From NCBI RefSeq assembly GCF_000205165.1, contig NZ_GL883886.1:118491-182490 (forward strand): a DNA stretch of 64,000 bases, given 5' to 3'. A program made the position numbers and the translations under genes. Below the pieces are notes generated by a model. That model searched no databases. It was given only the letters and a program-made list of their open reading frames with translations, and was not told the DNA's origin. This DNA comes from Paraprevotella xylaniphila YIT 11841 (lineage in GTDB: Bacteria > Bacteroidota > Bacteroidia > Bacteroidales > Bacteroidaceae). Below are positions 124 to 52,505 of this stretch, piece by piece. Positions within the stretch are counted from its first letter, which is position 1; each line of letters starts with the position of its first letter.

Positions 124-491
124 CAGGGATTTTTCAAAAAAGCTCCTTCATCTTTCAGGTCTTATCGTAAGTCTCTTAAAAACAAGTTTGTTGTGCCCTG
201 AAGGATGTACCGGCCATCTTTCAGCCGAAGGTGTCTGCATACCTTACGGAAGACGGGAAAGGCTCTTCCTTAAAAGGGCTTTTTTTCTGCGCCAAACGAT
301 TTTTCAATCTCAGCCAAGCGATTTTTCGTTCTGCGCCAAATGATTTTCCGCTTTCAGCCGACCGGTTTCCTGTTTTCATCCTGAAGGAAGGCTGAAAGAT
401 GGATGTTCTATCCTTCAGTTATTGTACGTGTTGGAACACAGTGTGTTATCGTTCGGGCTGAAAGATGAAGCCATTTTTCTGAAAACTCTTG
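124..491. repeat. Palindromic MITE-like element, copy A
   Basis: The element has nested inverted repeats. The outer arms share a perfect TTCATCTTTCAG (147-158) and CTGAAAGATGAA (458-469), with imperfect complementarity running out to CAGG at 124 and CTTG at 491. The inner arms are 27-base segments at 198-224 and 392-418, each reading CTGAAGGAT, a short spacer, then CATCTTTCAG on one strand. The centre carries four 22-bp modules. Copy D at 49771-50092 has the same architecture. There is no transposase inside and I see no clear target-site duplication. The short reading frame across this region (83-343) looks like repeat DNA rather than a gene. Confidence 0.75.
284..371. repeat. Array of four 22-bp modules, site A
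   Basis: Modules run 284-305, 306-327, 328-349 and 350-371. Odd modules carry CTGCGCCAAA and even ones CTCAGCC or TTCAGCC. The first two end in GATTTTTC, the third in GATTTTCC and the fourth is decayed (GGTTTCCT). The order and sequence match site D (49900-49987) almost base for base. Confidence 0.85.
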
Positions 492-13712: not shown

Positions 13713-13872
13713 CCATGCGGCCATGATGGGCTTTGGAGATTACGGGGGCATGTTGCGGAGCGGATGTCTGCATCGCTTTGTCCGGATTTCTTGTTATTCT
13801 TACGTGTATCTGTAAACAGCTGTTTTTTAGTTGGTTGAATGCATTAAAAAGTTCTCCTTAGATTCGATAATC

Positions 13873-13938
13873 AATCTGCGCCAAACGAAAAATCAATCAA
13901 AGGAGACTGATTTTTCGTTTGGCGCAGAACGATTTTAC
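13873..13938. repeat. Array of three 22-bp modules forming a 21-bp perfect hairpin, site B
   Basis: Modules run 13873-13894, 13895-13916 and 13917-13938. The first ends in GAAAAATC (the inverse of GATTTTTC), the second in GATTTTTC and the third in GATTTTAC. As a result 13875-13895 and 13908-13928 are perfect inverted repeats with a 12-base loop. There is no T-run right after it, so it is not a classic terminator. The surrounding 13713-14122 holds no gene that I can support. Confidence 0.85.
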
Positions 13939-24323: not shown

Positions 24324-25190
24324 TTACGGTTGCATCCGCTTCCGGATGGCTTCGGCGCATTCCTCCATCAGCCACTTCGGAGTGGACGTGGCCCCGCAAA
24401 TGCCTACCGAACGGCAGTCCTCCAACCAGACGAAATCAATCTCCGACGCGGCATCTACCAAATACGAGCGCGGGTTCACGCTCCGGCATTCGTCATACAA
24501 GACCTTCCCGTTGGAACTCTTTTTGCCGCACACGAAGAGAATCACATCGTGGCGTGTGGCGAAATCGCGGATGTGCGGCATGCGGTTGGCCACTTGGCGG
24601 CAGATGGTGTCGTAGTAACGGAAGGTGGCTGTGGGAGAGATGTGCGCGCCGATGTATTCCACGATTTTCCGGAAACCCTCCAACGGTTTGGTGGTTTGCG
24701 AATACAGGCAAATGTCCCGGTTGAAATCCAGTTTGTCCACTTCTTCCGGCGATTCGATGACGATGGCCTTGCCATCGGTCTGTCCCACGAGACCGAGCAC
24801 TTCGGCATGGCCGTTCTTTCCGTAGATGACGATTTGTTTGCTTTCCGTGCCCCCCGCCTGGTATTCCTTTTTGATGCGTTCCTGTAAGTGAAGTACCACA
24901 GGGCAGGTCGCATCTATGATTTCAATCCCGTTGGTTTCGGCTTGCCCGTACGTGGCCGGAGGCTCGCCGTGGGCACGCAAGAGCACTTTGGCGTGGTGCA
25001 AGGTCGAGAACGTGGCGTGGTCGATGGTGATGAGGCCGAGTTTTTTCAGGCGGTCGCATTCCTTGCCGTTGTGCACGATGTCGCCCAGACAGTAGAGCGT
25101 GGCTCCCCGTGCCAACTCTTCTTCCGCCTTGTTGATGGCGCGGGTCACGCCGAAGCAGAAACCCGACCCTTGGTCTATCTCTATCTTCAT
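24324..25190 (-). CDS. ispH: 4-hydroxy-3-methylbut-2-enyl diphosphate reductase
   Basis: This 288-residue iron-sulfur enzyme is the last step of the MEP isoprenoid pathway, making IPP and DMAPP from HMBPP. The three cluster cysteines are in conserved contexts: GSGFCFGVTRA (Cys12), DATCPVV (about residue 95) and SVGICGATSTP near the C-terminus. The catalytic Glu lies in the conserved mid region. It is cytoplasmic. It follows porQ and cmk on the same strand, with a 212-base gap that carries repeat site C. Confidence 0.96.
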   Translation of the reverse strand: MKIEIDQGSGFCFGVTRAINKAEEELARGATLYCLGDIVHNGKECDRLKKLGLITIDHATFSTLHHAKVLLRAHGEPPATYGQAETNGIEIIDATCPVVLHLQERIKKEYQAGGTESKQIVIYGKNGHAEVLGLVGQTDGKAIVIESPEEVDKLDFNRDICLYSQTTKPLEGFRKIVEYIGAHISPTATFRYYDTICRQVANRMPHIRDFATRHDVILFVCGKKSSNGKVLYDECRSVNPRSYLVDAASEIDFVWLEDCRSVGICGATSTPKWLMEECAEAIRKRMQP

Positions 25191-25241
25191 TTGTAAAAAT
25201 CCTTTAAGCTTTAAGCACTGTACCGTACAGTCCCTTTTCCC

Positions 25242-25351
25242 GTTTTGCTGAAGTTATCGTTTCGTTCTGCTCCGAATGGAAAATCAATCGAAGCAGAATG
25301 ATTTTTCAATCTCAGGAGATTGATTTTTCATTCTCAGTAGATTTTTTAGCC
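25242..25351. repeat. Array of 22-bp modules, site C
   Basis: Four clear modules run 25264-25285, 25286-25307, 25308-25329 and 25330-25351, with a probable degenerate one at 25242-25263 ending in ATCGTTTC. The first ends in GGAAAATC (inverse orientation), the next two in GATTTTTC. The first two modules match the head of site B base for base at most positions. It lies in the cmk-ispH gap. Confidence 0.8.
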
Positions 25352-32631: not shown

Positions 32632-32646
32632 TAGAAGGATATTATT

Positions 32647-32686
32647 AAAAAACGGTATTTTCATTATGAAAATACCGTTTTTTTTA
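32647..32686 (+). terminator. Terminator of the exb operon
   Basis: A 16-bp perfect stem (32647-32662 with 32668-32683) with loop ATTAT is followed by a T-run. Confidence 0.95.
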
Positions 32687-46964: not shown

Positions 46965-49580
46965 TTATTGCTTGCCTTCTAGTTTTCCTATTCGCATAAC
47001 GATAGAGGTTTGACTTCTTCCCATTTTCTCTGCGATGTACTTTATGCTTTTTCCTTCATGGTAAAGGGTAAGTAGGAATTTGTCAGCACTGCGTGTCCAT
47101 TTCTTGTTGGCATTGGGGTGTTTGGTGTAACTTTCTTCCGTGACTTTACCGGGGTGTAAGAACTCGTCAACAAAAACGGATGGGAAGTGTCTGTCGTAAA
47201 GTACGTATGTCTTTATTTTGGCTCTGGTGATAGCCACATAAAACAACCTACGTTCTTCCCCATACGGATATTGGTCGCTTTTAGTCAGAACATAATCAAG
47301 AACAGGGTCATCACTTACCATTGAAGGGAATCCATAGGTATCTTTGTTGCATTGAAGTATTATTACATAATCTGCTTCAAGTCCTTTGGATTTATGGACT
47401 GTAAGGAATTCAATCTTTCTGTTTCCAATGAAGTAGTAAAAGCGATTGCCCTCTTTTACCGATTTGTACAGAAACGACAAATAGTAGTCATCAAAGGAAT
47501 ACCGCCCTAACAAAAAGATGGATTTATCCGCAGGGATAGACGCAACCAATAGTCCGATAGCGTTACAATAGTCACGTCGTTCATAAGCGCAGAATTGTAA
47601 TTCGGTTTTGATTTGCGGATTGAATGGGTGTATATCCTTTTTTAGCTGTGTCTTATTCCGTTGGATGAATTGCGATGACAGGCTTACCAAAGGCTCTCCA
47701 AAACGGTATGTCGTTTCGATTCTATTGATTTCTGTGGAGCCGAAATAATCAGAGAATTGATTGAAAAGAGCCATGTCACTTCCTGAAAAACGGTATATGG
47801 ATTGCCAATCATCGCCCACGCAATACAATTTTGCAGGAGGATTGCCTTCTCGGAGTACTTTAAGGAAATTGTAGCGGTCAACTGATATATCCTGGAACTC
47901 GTCAACGATGATATATTCATACTTTACAGGATGGGAGGAACGGCATATTTCCGTGGCTTGCAGAATAGCATCGGTAAAGTCTATCTGATTACTGCTTTTC
48001 AATTCTTCAATATACAGTTCATAAACAGGCTGAAATATTCTCTTGATAATAAATGTGCTGCGTTCGTCCCCAACACTTTTAGCCTGTTTCAAAACCTCTT
48101 TTATAGACTTGCAACTGGACTTAATTAATGTCGCAAAAGTTACAACAAGCCGAATGAAAGCCTTTTCTTGCTTGCTGTTTGGAGGAAGAACCATATCGTA
48201 TAATTCGGCATCTGTTTTTTCTTGAACAGGAACGCCTATCTTTTCCAATGAAGCTTTTAATGTATGCCGAATATCTGAATAATGGAAATCAGCACTTGAA
48301 GTTGTCAATAATATAGTCCCAAACTTCTCATGGGCTGCTTTTTTCCATGTTATTCCGTCATTGTATTTTTGGTTTGCTTCTTCATAAGTAATGCCTTTGT
48401 CTTTTGCAAACCATGTGGGAACAAGTCCATGCTCGTTCACGCCAAAATGCTCTAAATAAATACGTTTTGTATTGCCATCTTGCTCAAAGTAAATGGAAAA
48501 ATCGGGTCTGTATTGTGAATGCATTTCATCAGCCAATGGATGTTCGTAAGGCTCTTCATACCTGAATTTCACACCCAAAGAAGATAATACAAAACAGATT
48601 TTCTGCTCCTGCTCACTACGAACATAAATAGTTTTCCCGTCCATGTCAGGGAATTGCGCTTTCAAGCGTGCTTCTTTTAATTCGGAGAGTTTTTGTCTAC
48701 GCTCATTTTTGTGATGCTCCCAATCCTCTTCTTGCACTTGATAGTCAACAAAGTATTCTATAATACCTTTTTTGAACCACTTATCTTCTAATAGTTTATG
48801 ATATATTTTCACAAACAATGCGTCTGTGTTATCGCAGATGGAGGGCTTTTGTCCTGTCGCTTTCCCGATGATGTCAATAGCAAGTTTATGAAAGGTGTAT
48901 CCCCTTAGTCCTTCTATATCCATCCTTTCCGTCAACTCGGCAGCAGCTTTGTTTGTATAGCTGATAAGAAGAATCTTTTGAGGATTGATGTGCTTGATGT
49001 CTACCAGGAACCTTCCCTTTCCTACAATGGACGATGTTTTTCCACTTCCTGCACTACTAACCACCAAACAATTATCTTCCTCAGACACGATTGAACGCCT
49101 TTGCTGTGTGTCTAACGGGTATTTAAGACAATGGTCGAAAAAAACTTTGTGGGTGTCAAGAGTGTCTTGGATAACCTGCTCATTATGTCTTTTGACAATT
49201 GAGTGGATGTTTCCGAAATCATGTGTAAATTTTGAGATTGTCTCGGACGGTTTTATATGGAATGCTTCAAGACTTCTCTGCAAAGAATTGACTTTATGGA
49301 AGAACTCAGTATAATATTTTGTGAATTGTTTCTCTTCCGAAGAGGATATTATGTGTTCATTAAAACTATTCCTTAAATCGGTTTCAATATCAATGAAAAA
49401 ACTTTCATTACTTTGCTTTAGTTCCTTTTCTCTGCTTTTTTGTATATCCTTATAAGGAGTTATGGTTGTAATTCGTTCCGACAGTTCATTTAATCTCTTT
49501 TTTAGCAATAACCGTATCGTTACTATGACGATACCTATTATAGTAGCGATACTTAGTCCTAAAACAAAAGATGAAAGCAT
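46965..49580 (-). CDS. Membrane-anchored UvrD/Rep-type (helicase IV-like) helicase with internal PD-(D/E)XK-like segment
   Basis: This 871-residue protein begins with a membrane segment (LSSFVLGLSIATIIGIVIVTI) and a coiled-coil region. Helicase motifs: Walker A SSAGSGKTSSIVGK near residue 178, IIVDEFQDIS near 560, GDDWQSIYRFSGSD near 590, TVHKSKGLEADYVIIL near 725 and RRLFYVAITRAK near 780. Between the first motifs (about 345-375) YRPDFSI and IYLEHFG resemble the nuclease-like insert of helicase IV homologues. The C-terminus ends in a helix-turn-helix-like segment. Its lower GC and isolated position beside a repeat element suggest an accessory gene. Repair or anti-invader roles are both possible. 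Confidence 0.85.
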   Translation of the reverse strand: MLSSFVLGLSIATIIGIVIVTIRLLLKKRLNELSERITTITPYKDIQKSREKELKQSNESFFIDIETDLRNSFNEHIISSSEEKQFTKYYTEFFHKVNSLQRSLEAFHIKPSETISKFTHDFGNIHSIVKRHNEQVIQDTLDTHKVFFDHCLKYPLDTQQRRSIVSEEDNCLVVSSAGSGKTSSIVGKGRFLVDIKHINPQKILLISYTNKAAAELTERMDIEGLRGYTFHKLAIDIIGKATGQKPSICDNTDALFVKIYHKLLEDKWFKKGIIEYFVDYQVQEEDWEHHKNERRQKLSELKEARLKAQFPDMDGKTIYVRSEQEQKICFVLSSLGVKFRYEEPYEHPLADEMHSQYRPDFSIYFEQDGNTKRIYLEHFGVNEHGLVPTWFAKDKGITYEEANQKYNDGITWKKAAHEKFGTILLTTSSADFHYSDIRHTLKASLEKIGVPVQEKTDAELYDMVLPPNSKQEKAFIRLVVTFATLIKSSCKSIKEVLKQAKSVGDERSTFIIKRIFQPVYELYIEELKSSNQIDFTDAILQATEICRSSHPVKYEYIIVDEFQDISVDRYNFLKVLREGNPPAKLYCVGDDWQSIYRFSGSDMALFNQFSDYFGSTEINRIETTYRFGEPLVSLSSQFIQRNKTQLKKDIHPFNPQIKTELQFCAYERRDYCNAIGLLVASIPADKSIFLLGRYSFDDYYLSFLYKSVKEGNRFYYFIGNRKIEFLTVHKSKGLEADYVIILQCNKDTYGFPSMVSDDPVLDYVLTKSDQYPYGEERRLFYVAITRAKIKTYVLYDRHFPSVFVDEFLHPGKVTEESYTKHPNANKKWTRSADKFLLTLYHEGKSIKYIAEKMGRSQTSIVMRIGKLEGKQ

Positions 49581-49633
49581 AACGCTCCTTTTTTATTTCA
49601 CGTGTATTGAAAAGAGTTGCCTCAATCCGAATA

Positions 49634-49641
49634 CAAAGATA
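49634..49641 (-). promoter_or_regulatory. Candidate -7 element for the helicase gene
   Basis: TATCTTTG on the minus strand lies 53 bases before the ATG at 49580. No TTTG at -33. Confidence 0.5.
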
Positions 49642-49770
49642 GTGGATTTTTACGATAATCTCTTATTTTCTAATGATTTTCTTTATTTCTTCAAAGAACT
49701 TAGGATAGTTGGAGATTGTTGGGATAGAAAAGGTATTTTGCCGGAGTCCATCATTTTCTGTATGTTTCCC

Positions 49771-50092
49771 CAAGGTTTTTTGCAAAAACATCCTTCATCT
49801 TTCAGATTGTTCGATAATCGGTTGTTATAGAATGAATTGTAGGATGAAGGATGTTTCAGTCATCTTTCAGTTCCCCTTCATGGCAGAAAGCAATGAAAAG
49901 TTCTGCGCCAAATGATTTTTCAATCTCAGCCGAACGATTTTTCGTTCTGCGCCAAGCGATTTTCCTGTCTCAGCCGAACGAAATGAAGCATGGCTGAAAG
50001 ATGCCTGAAATATCCTTCAGCTTATAACATCAATGTTATGAGGATGTTAAAGTGCATCCTGAAAGATGAAGGATGTTTTCACGAAAAACTTG
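49771..50092. repeat. Palindromic MITE-like element, copy D
   Basis: The outer arms are perfect 21-bp inverted repeats at 49785-49805 and 50059-50079 (core CATCCTTCATCTTTCAG), with weaker pairing out to CAAG at 49771 and CTTG at 50092. The inner arms 49843-49870 and 49994-50021 are also nearly complementary. The centre has four 22-bp modules. An ATAACAT/ATGTTAT hairpin lies in the right half. There is no coding sequence inside. It occupies most of the gap between the helicase and topB genes. Confidence 0.85.
49900..49987. repeat. Array of four 22-bp modules, site D
   Basis: Modules run 49900-49921, 49922-49943, 49944-49965 and 49966-49987, alternating CTGCGCC and CTCAGCC cores as in site A. 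The first two end in GATTTTTC, the third in GATTTTCC, and the fourth has lost the T-run. Confidence 0.88.
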
Positions 50093-50125
50093 TGTAGGAG
50101 GCGGTATGGCATGCAAGGACGCGGC

Positions 50126-52333
50126 TTACGAAGAGATTTCCAACGGTGCGCGGAAAGTACATCCGTTTTTCCATTCCGAACAGCCGAAAGCGGTCTTGCC
50201 TTTGATGATGTGCCCCTTTCCGCAGAGCGGGCAGAGGTTACCCTCTTTGGGGGCAGGAGGCGTGGCCGGGATTACGGCTGTTTGGGGAGCGGCCGACTTT
50301 TTAGATAAATCGCTCTCGCCCGGCATAGTCAGGCGGGCTTGGTTCTGCTCTCGCTTGCTCGCGATTTTGCGTGCCGTTTTTGGTGCTTTAGCTGACTTTT
50401 CTTTTACGTTTCCCTTTTTCCCTTTTGGTACAGGTTTATCTTCCTGTGTTTCCGCGACGCGACGGTTGGTGTTGTCTGCCAGGACGGTATGCACGATTTC
50501 GGCTACCATTTGCTTGAGTTCTTCCAAAAAAGTTTTGGCATCGTAGGTTTTCTTTTCAATCAACCGAAGGCGGCGTTCCCAAATGCCGGTCAACTCGGCA
50601 CTTTTGAGCAGTTCCTCATGGATGAGGCTGATGAGTTCCACTCCCGTGGGAGTGGCTATAAGGTTCTTTCGTTCCAACCGAATATAATGCCGCTTGAAGA
50701 GGGTCTGGATGATGGCGGCCCGGGTGGACGGACGGCCGATACCGTTCTCTTTCAAGGCATCACGCAATTCGTCGTCGTCCACCAGGCGACCCGCAGTCTC
50801 CATGGCGCGCAAGAGCGTAGCTTCTGTGTAAGGTTTGGGTGGCTGTGTCCATTTTTCGGCCAAGTCCGGAACGTGGGGGCCGCTTTCACCTTTCGTGAAA
50901 ACAGGGAGCGTACGTTCTTCCTCGGCGTTTTTTCCCAAGGTTTCCACCGTCTTGGCCTCCTGTGCATACACCTCTCGCCAACCCGGCAAGAGAATCTGTT
51001 TGCCGGTGGCTTTGAACGGGATGTTGGCCGTTTCGCCGAGGATGGTGGTGGTGGCGAATTTGCAGTCGGGGTAGAACGCTGCAATGAAACGCCGCGCCAC
51101 GAGGTCGAATACCCGTTGTTCGTCCGGTGTCAAGCCGTGCGGTGCTACTCCTGTGGGGATAATGGCATGGTGGTCGGTGACTTTGGAAGAGTCGAACACC
51201 TTTTTACTCTTTTTCAACGCCGCGCCACGTAAGGGTTGGAGCAAGGCGGCATATTCGCCGGCTATACCGTTGAGGATGGCGTTGCATTTCGGATAAATGT
51301 CGTCGCTCAGGAAAGTGGTGTCCACACGTGGATAAGTCGTGACTTTCTTCTCGTAGAGCGACTGGATGAGTTGCAGGGTCAGGTCGGACGAGAAAGAAAA
51401 CTTGCGGTTGCATTCCACCTGTAGCGAGGTCAGGTCGTACAAACGGGGAGGGGCTTCCGTTCCGTTTTTCTTGGTGACGGACGTAATCGTGAACGGTGCG
51501 TCTTTGATTTGTTCAAGGGCTTTCCGTCCTTCTTCTTCCGAGGTGAATCCCCGGCGTGCCACATCGTTTGCCTTGCCGCTTCCGTTGCCGTTCGCACCTT
51601 TTTCCTGAGAAACCGTCGCGGTTTCCTCTTCGTCTTGTTCCAACACAGCGGTAAAGACTGTATCACGGTAGTTGGTGGTCAGTACCCAATAAGGTTCCGG
51701 CTTGAAGTTCTCGATTTCCTGTTGACGGTTGACGATGAGAGCCAGTGTGGGGGTTTGAACCCGTCCGATGCTCAGCACCTGGCGGCCCTGTGCGTACTTC
51801 AATGTATAGAGCCGCGTGGCGTTCATGCCCAAAGTCCAGTCGCCGATGGCGCGGCTCAGTCCGGCTTCGTAGAGCGACTGGTATTCGCTCTGGTCTTTCA
51901 GGTTGCTGAATCCCTCACGGATGGCTTCTTCCGTGAGTGACGAAATCCAGAGGCGTTTCACCGGGCATCGGGCACCGGCCTTCTGCATGACCCAACGTTG
52001 TATCAACTCTCCCTCCTGTCCGGCATCACCGCAGTTGATGATCATGTCAGCAGCCTGCATCAGCCGTTCAATCACCCGGAATTGTTCTTCGATGCCCTTG
52101 TCATTTTTCAGCTTGATGCCGAAGCGGGGCGGAATCATGGGTAATGAAGAAAGGCTCCACGCTTTCCAGAGCGGAGTATATTCGTGCGGTTCCTTCAGTT
52201 CGCAAAGATGACCGAAAGTCCAAGTGACCTGGTAGCCGTTGCCTTCCCAATAATTACGGTGGTCTTGCGTGGCGCCCAGTACTTTGGCAATGTCTTTACC
52301 CACACTGGGTTTCTCGGCGATACATACAATCAT
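50126..52333 (-). CDS. topB: DNA topoisomerase III
   Basis: This 735-residue type IA topoisomerase has the N-terminal TOPRIM (MIVCIAEKPSVGKDIAKVLG, then INCGDAGQEGELIQRW with catalytic acidic residues), the active-site Tyr in TYPRVDTTFLS near residue 320 and DHHAIIPTG near residue 385. A single C-terminal zinc finger (CPLCGKGHIIKG to GC) follows a basic linker rich in Lys. The ATG at 52333 starts directly at the TOPRIM strand; the longer frame to 52432 is rejected. It resolves single-strand crossings after replication or recombination. TopB genes also travel on mobile elements, but this one looks like the chromosomal type. Confidence 0.94.
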   Translation of the reverse strand: MIVCIAEKPSVGKDIAKVLGATQDHRNYWEGNGYQVTWTFGHLCELKEPHEYTPLWKAWSLSSLPMIPPRFGIKLKNDKGIEEQFRVIERLMQAADMIINCGDAGQEGELIQRWVMQKAGARCPVKRLWISSLTEEAIREGFSNLKDQSEYQSLYEAGLSRAIGDWTLGMNATRLYTLKYAQGRQVLSIGRVQTPTLALIVNRQQEIENFKPEPYWVLTTNYRDTVFTAVLEQDEEETATVSQEKGANGNGSGKANDVARRGFTSEEEGRKALEQIKDAPFTITSVTKKNGTEAPPRLYDLTSLQVECNRKFSFSSDLTLQLIQSLYEKKVTTYPRVDTTFLSDDIYPKCNAILNGIAGEYAALLQPLRGAALKKSKKVFDSSKVTDHHAIIPTGVAPHGLTPDEQRVFDLVARRFIAAFYPDCKFATTTILGETANIPFKATGKQILLPGWREVYAQEAKTVETLGKNAEEERTLPVFTKGESGPHVPDLAEKWTQPPKPYTEATLLRAMETAGRLVDDDELRDALKENGIGRPSTRAAIIQTLFKRHYIRLERKNLIATPTGVELISLIHEELLKSAELTGIWERRLRLIEKKTYDAKTFLEELKQMVAEIVHTVLADNTNRRVAETQEDKPVPKGKKGNVKEKSAKAPKTARKIASKREQNQARLTMPGESDLSKKSAAPQTAVIPATPPAPKEGNLCPLCGKGHIIKGKTAFGCSEWKNGCTFRAPLEISS

Positions 52334-52360
52334 GCGTTTCTCTTCTTCATTATAGCGGGA

Positions 52361-52368
52361 CAAAGATA
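52361..52368 (-). promoter_or_regulatory. Candidate -7 element for topB
   Basis: TATCTTTG on the minus strand lies 27 bases before the topB ATG. There is no TTTG at the consensus -33 distance. Confidence 0.5.
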
Positions 52369-52505
52369 GTGCTTTTTGCCGGAAAAATGCAGGGAAAGCC
52401 TTTCGATTTGCAAGTGGATGCAAGGATGCCATGGGAGGATTGTATTTTTTCGGTTGTTTTATAGTTAAAAAACGCCCAAAGTCTCTTCTTTTCTTTCTTT
52501 TTTAT

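Follow-up and report, generated by a model that had tools for sequence, protein, structure and literature searches.

The draft genome from which the window was taken (3.79 Mb, genus Paraprevotella; the window is the 64,000-nucleotide stretch C82:118491-182490) carries at least 100 arrays, mostly made of four 22-bp units. Each site, in which dyad centres recur every 11 bp, may be a compact cis element about 88 bp long, with four tandem predicted binding sites at a phase of 22 bp (about two helical turns) that a putative sequence-specific DNA-binding protein would occupy cooperatively on a single face of the helix. The arrays would then act as anchoring or boundary points of chromosome domains, with a role in topology, folding or segregation, and the protein would co-evolve with lineage-specific words. 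This reading of the arrays as four in-phase sites for a putative architectural protein, with its predicted binding, domain anchoring and co-evolution, is drawn from sequence patterns and is offered tentatively, as a serious possibility that stops short of being probable.

Arrays in the window

The earlier note described four unrelated intergenic sites, A to D, built of 22-bp units. All were found at the positions noted there, with steps of exactly 22 bp; they are related, however, in that they have one grammar in common.

Site A: 283..364, no strand assigned, four-unit array of four 16-bp cores and three 6-bp linkers
Site B: 13850..13931, no strand assigned, four-unit array
Site C: 25263..25344, no strand assigned, four-unit array
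Site D: 49899..49980, no strand assigned, four-unit array

Site B has an extra degenerate upstream unit beyond its previously described extent, its units 2 and 4 are nearly complementary, and its neighbours are an M20-peptidase-like and an alpha-2-macroglobulin-like gene. Site C, which lies 72 bp from the end of a called LytB-family ORF (24324-25190, minus strand), also has a weak fifth unit (25241-25256). Site D is flanked by a UvrD-type helicase ORF (46965-49580, minus strand) and a bacterial DNA topoisomerase gene (50126-52432, minus strand), a neighbourhood (window 46965-52432) that is probably a coincidence. The seven genes scanned next to the four sites have no obvious common theme.

TRF reported period 22 at sites A, C and D, and no such period at site B. 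In the window alone, a one-unit pattern gave 11 matches where shuffled sequences averaged 5.65; 2 of 100 shuffles reached 11, so that the excess is only weakly significant. TRF also reported a two-copy period-22 tandem, ATTATGAAAAAACCGTATTTTC, at window 32641-32683, the letters of which differ from those of the arrays.

Unit anatomy and grammar

The unit of the window genome consists of a 16-bp core, composed of a few half-words in either orientation, and a 6-bp A/T linker; the block of four cores and three linkers measures 82 bp. From the 103 arrays found in window-genome DNA three weak two-unit matches were dropped, and in the 100 analysed, unit positions 0 to 3 are occupied in 81, 96, 99 and 80%, the adjacent outer positions scoring as units in just 3 and 7%. 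The grammar of 336 cores is an outer CRWT/AWYG with inner half-words CTGC, CTCA, CTCC, TGGC, CGGC and a few others. Favoured pairs are CTGC with TGGC (87 observed, 26.8 expected) and CTCA with CGGC (46, 14.8 expected); TGGC with TGGC (12.2 expected) and TGGC with CGGC (13.8 expected) are never seen. Linkers are mainly ATTTTT or AAAAAT, plus near variants. Both here and in P. clara, dyad symmetry is maximal at unit phases 8 and 19, which are 11 bp apart; the peak in the core is partly imposed by the symmetric model, and that in the linker is not directly imposed. In P. clara C39 (L188-L207) intergenic 8-mer repeats peak also at distance 88 (69 counts), or 4 x 22.

The constant unit length claimed previously held at further sites, even where linkers are unrelated. 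The T-run, which had been presented as a recurrent mark of the units, is not a general feature because a relative (G022) and another genus (g30), described below, keep the 22-bp phase without a T-run linker. A CRISPR had been dismissed, and correctly so: units abut, 6-bp linkers are held in common and there are no unique spacers between identical repeats.

Family size

The family is dispersed, as had been proposed, with further sites far above chance: allowing up to three mismatches, the one-unit pattern gave 203 matches in the whole window genome and none when read backwards. A four-unit detector found 23-24 arrays in 400 kb of P. clara, 18-19 in another 390 kb of that species and 4 in the 64-kb window, and reversed control sequences gave 0 arrays at each threshold from 18 to 28. 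Across 18 Paraprevotella genomes a wider one-unit pattern gave 289 matches in the window genome (G000), 349 in P. clara (G188), 136 in G204, 1 in G048 and 0 in the remaining 14. Only G000 and G188 had more than one match among 201 genomes sampled from the taxonomic family, a sample that does not include G204. Confinement of the arrays to three Paraprevotella genomes was nevertheless rejected, being true for the window words only, as relatives have 22-bp arrays with other words. Each of three exact array patterns gave 0 matches in viral_contigs, and a phage origin was therefore rejected.

Conservation between the window genome and P. clara

Where both flanks of a window-genome array could be mapped to P. 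clara C21 or C39, an array was present in 13 of 14 cases, and the single empty site reads as a deletion. Thirteen more were mapped by one flank, ten near a P. clara array and three not, several of these matches being to the arm sequence, which is itself repeated; the remaining window-genome arrays were unmapped in these contigs. In the reverse direction, eight P. clara arrays fall in contiguous window-genome contigs, and seven of them have an array there. In all, 32 P. clara arrays were mapped, from loci in which 69 are counted; the 24 assigned to site-centred stretches were excluded because those stretches had been selected for containing arrays. Nine gaps are syntenic between P. clara C21 and the window genome's own contigs, with arrays in both in three, only in P. 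clara in one, only in the window genome in none and in neither in five (P 0.048). The counterpart of site A is identical at 77/82 positions (L041:1075 to own_C82:80283, window 283) and that of site D at 65/82 (L081:1326 to own_C82:129899, window 49899); none was found for sites B and C in the P. clara DNA examined.

The array grammar is retained better than neutral drift predicts. P. clara partner arrays have a grammar score of 47.1, where neutral simulation gives 31.5 and the window-genome arrays score 49.6, and the score exceeds the simulated mean in 13/13 pairs, with individual P below 0.05 in 9/13; the simulation is a simple one, with uniform substitution at flank divergence, and the model, which was trained on the window genome, also served to find the partners.

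The 31 array pairs compared (one probably paralogous, as L032 and L087 both map to own_L029) include three with an exact inversion of a two-unit segment between species, and several paired changes occur inside arrays (for example L004, L070/L144, C21:10025 and C21:307485), indicating that the arrays are subject to hairpin-type mutation. What is conserved is something other than hairpins, because arrays without complementary units are common: no unit pair is complementary in 13/16 positions in 54/100 window-genome and 42/69 P. clara arrays. Hairpin or RNA structure was rejected as the conserved feature on this ground.

Arrays with other words in related genomes

G048 and G022, two other Paraprevotella genomes sampled in depth, lack the window words and instead have 22-bp-phased arrays of their own. 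Intergenic 8-mer repeats peak at distance 22, with 54 counts in G048 (mean of the others 1.2) and 44 in G022 (1.1), and de novo clusters at spacing 22 number 8 and 10 respectively, with at most 2 at any other spacing. Single 16-kb stretches gave two clusters in G069, three in G010 of another genus, not all convincing, and none in G103, G118 and G013. The gene adjoining one array was detected in 12/18 Paraprevotella genomes; at this gene G048 has one flank in common and, judged by eye, a different 22-bp-phased array, and the gaps there in other Paraprevotella species contain none of the window genome's words.

The fixed word of G022 is TTGCGCAA, for which a search permitting separations of 16-38 bp gave 142 pairs, and among the pairs listed 19/19 are exactly 22 bp apart. 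In 160 kb of this genome 44 TTGCGCAA positions have spacing 22, three have spacing 18 and none has any of seven others from 19 to 26. The intervening 14-bp linkers are unrelated and just the 8-bp core recurs. Four TTGCGCAA pairs, all spaced 22, are present in G152 (g11). The word of genus g30 is AACGCGTT, with 17 pairs in each of G089 and G120, 16 in G148, 1 in G176 and 0 in the remaining 7 of the 11 sampled; most of its 14-bp inserts consist of two half-words flanking ACGT.

Place rather than spelling appears to be kept, the strongest sign of which is co-occupancy with G022, resting on four loci. Synteny of G022 with the window genome covers 21 gaps, into which just 5/12 G022 arrays fall; arrays are present in both genomes in four gaps, only in G022 in one, only in the window genome in none and in neither in 16 (P 0.0008); where both gaps are at least 250 bp long, four have arrays in both, none in a single genome and ten in neither (P 0.001). 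G022 arrays 17160, 92325 and 125655 map to own C61 positions without an array, and none of the seven gaps syntenic between G048 and the window genome has an array in both. In G204, 7/14 arrays have a single flank with a match in the DNA examined from the other two species, and 2/7 of these are near an array, at 67% identity, which weakly suggests that its arrays are at different positions from those of the window genome and P. clara.

Chromosomal placement

Placement was analysed in a contiguous set of 1.62 Mb (P. clara C21, 400 kb, and C39, 390 kb; own C33, 285 kb, C61, 234 kb, C66, 147 kb, and C82, 164 kb). All 79 arrays in these six contigs are outside called genes, with gene calls from a home-made ORF caller that missed some genes, and the reversed sequences gave 0 arrays. 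By context, 26 arrays are in convergent, 39 in same-direction and 14 in divergent gaps, and the background of 346 gaps of at least 120 bp is made up of 62, 197 and 87 respectively. Convergent gaps are thus enriched (26/79 vs 62/346, P 0.005), and the deficit in divergent gaps has P 0.19.

The arrays are evenly spaced. The pooled interval CV is 0.43 (73 intervals), compared to 0.89±0.09 for random intergenic placement with equal weighting (2000 draws, lowest 0.63) and 0.87±0.09 with length weighting (lowest 0.62); no draw reached 0.43. The mean interval per contig ranges from 14.8 to 51 kb, and own C66 has a 70-kb array-free stretch with island-like restriction-modification and PriCT/DUF3987 genes as well as ordinary genes. 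The first 160 kb of G022 C2 contain 12 arrays (mean interval 13.3 kb, 7/12 in convergent gaps) with a CV of 0.40 against a null of 0.86±0.22 (P 0.0024). The generality of even spacing is in doubt, because evenness in G048 is borderline (8 arrays, P 0.043) and G120 of genus g30 has only about 13 pattern sites in 3.1 Mb. The broader proposal of a chromosome-wide ruler, in which evenly placed four-site docking arrays would occur family-wide, keep their places, change words in concert and be served by their own putative binding-protein family, is possible but doubtful.

Inverted repeats around sites A and D

Sites A and D are enclosed by nested inverted repeats, resembling the envelope of a MITE, which are absent from the earlier note.

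Site A envelope: 128..488, no strand assigned, nested inverted repeats with arms 128-158/458-488 (81% complementary) and 198-226/390-418 (83%)
Site D envelope, outer: 49775..50089, no strand assigned, nested inverted repeats with 31-nt arms 49775-49805/50059-50089 (90% complementary)
Site D envelope, inner arms: 49837-49881/49983-50027, no strand assigned, 78% complementary

The arms resemble CATCCTTCATCTTTCAG, and arm sequence occurs in 3/18 genomes (16 matches in G000, 13 in G188 and 6 in G022). Array and envelope are separable: a loose arm motif lies within 120 bp of 16/100 window-genome arrays, the arm copies in G022 lack window-type arrays, some of them continuing into GC-rich sequence at contig ends with no array, and locus L105 has a short arm copy without an array. 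Outside the four units conservation is at most 0.46 bits per flanking position; terminal inverted repeats bounding a repeated element were found only for the envelope of this minority, including A and D, and not for the arrays themselves.

Comparison with known systems

The earlier note knew of no named family with this layout, and a match to a described repeat, sought in Rfam and in the accessible portions of the full-text literature (including PMC4596501, PMC2817692, PMC3733652 and PMC5771137), was not found. REP/BIME elements are described in the accessible text as short palindromic extragenic repeats, usually of more than 100 copies and species-specific, which form composite clusters with regularly spaced units and for which a role in chromosome organisation has been proposed (PMC2817692). 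Like these, the arrays are high-copy, extragenic and palindromic; unlike them, they have four units at 22 bp and even chromosomal spacing, some loci are common to a relative with different words, and the carriers have no match to Y1_Tnp as a cognate transposase. The BrickBuilt repeat of Porphyromonas gingivalis is, as far as the text available to us describes it, a minisatellite within a MITE, with imperfect direct repeats of 23 nt in 1 to 22.8 copies at 19 sites per genome, some copies lying within leader and tail segments with terminal inverted repeats and some without (PMC4596501). The arrays resemble it, on that partial description, in being intergenic tandem units of nearly equal length in Bacteroidales, some of them enveloped, and differ in having 22-bp units, usually four, a distinction drawn from unit length, number and arrangement as described.

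A simple minisatellite, with a variable number of mutually copied units, was rejected given the usual four units and the unrelated G022 linkers at the same phase. Plasmid iterons are protein-binding sites in tandem, with steps of about 22 bp that place them on the same face of the DNA. They are direct repeats at a single replication origin, whereas the arrays consist of dyads in either orientation and occupy 100 or more places in the chromosome.

Alternative explanations

The main rival to domain anchoring, which we regard as unlikely, is a BIME/REP-like mobile repeat spread by a lineage-specific mobiliser and then fixed, its even spacing arising from target immunity or selection against close copies and its words from successive waves of elements. 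With REPs and BIMEs, as described in the accessible text (PMC2817692), the arrays have in common that they are dispersed, palindromic, intergenic and particular to a species; they favour convergent gaps, some lie near the MITE-like arm motif, which also occurs array-free in G022 and L105, and the G204 positions seem, weakly, to differ. Mobility does not sit well with the low information in the flanks beyond the four units, or with loci common to G022 and the window genome despite different words. Two empty sites, inspected by eye, lack a clear target duplication; L123 reads as a loss from P. clara by deletion, and the picture at own C66:55399 is ambiguous. Mobilisation by RAYT was rejected as there is no Y1_Tnp (RAYT, PF01797) match in the draft carrier genomes G000, G188 and G204 (the last 82% complete); among the 18 Paraprevotella genomes only G087 has one.

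Concerted evolution of self-complementary DNA, in which template switching or recombination homogenises and inverts units with no function needed, would account for the three exact two-unit inversions, the several paired changes and a vocabulary specific to each genome. We consider it improbable, as about half of the arrays or more (54/100 and 42/69) have no complementary unit pair, the 8-bp core of G022 with its unrelated linkers is judged too short for ordinary homologous exchange, and it leaves unexplained why the units usually number four and why the arrays are evenly spaced and lie between genes. Elements acting as RNA, either 3'-end hairpins or bidirectional terminators, agree with the convergent-gap excess and with a fold z that averages -4.2 across 169 arrays and is below -2 in 61% of them (30 shuffles per array), yet many arrays lack a strong stem (L010, for instance, has z +1.7), divergent gaps are used too (14/79), and a tRNA was the sole Rfam match above gathering score in the whole window, with none at the arrays; we find this explanation very improbable. 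Least credible by a small degree are local operators of a large regulon. Four tandem dyads do resemble a classic cooperative operator, but divergent, promoter-containing gaps are not preferred (14/79 vs 87/346), even spacing would be unexpected and the seven genes scanned at the window sites suggest no theme.

Cooperative binding by the putative architectural protein would be in keeping with a phase that stays fixed while linkers are unrelated, with a usual number of four units whose dyads share a face, and with evenly spaced positions between genes. The earlier note had likened the layout to repeated protein-binding sites on one DNA face, with which a phase that stays at 22 even with unrelated linkers is consistent; the usual four units, even chromosomal spacing, shared positions and lineage-specific words are points absent from it. 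An anchor role would be preferred to single-gene operators because at least 100 elements are fairly evenly spread between genes. If the arrays do organise the chromosome, they would provide a mappable set of domain anchors in these gut bacteria, and words that change in concert at common loci would serve as a natural experiment on how a DNA-binding protein and a hundred targets change together. If they are mobile instead, they represent a class of repeats, usually of four units, that would be spread by a putative mobiliser.

Variant arrays

A recurrent subtype has two good units only and adjoins a ATGCGGAGAAAA...TTTTTTC stem. A further type, also phased at 22 bp, combines TGCGG with AGTACT or GTACTC palindromes.

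ATGCGGAGAAAA-stem subtype: L131, L135, L140; P. clara C21:29030, 216179; C39:194046, 364588
AGTACT/GTACTC array type: G048:C2 51803, 117767; G069:C1 4198, 12889
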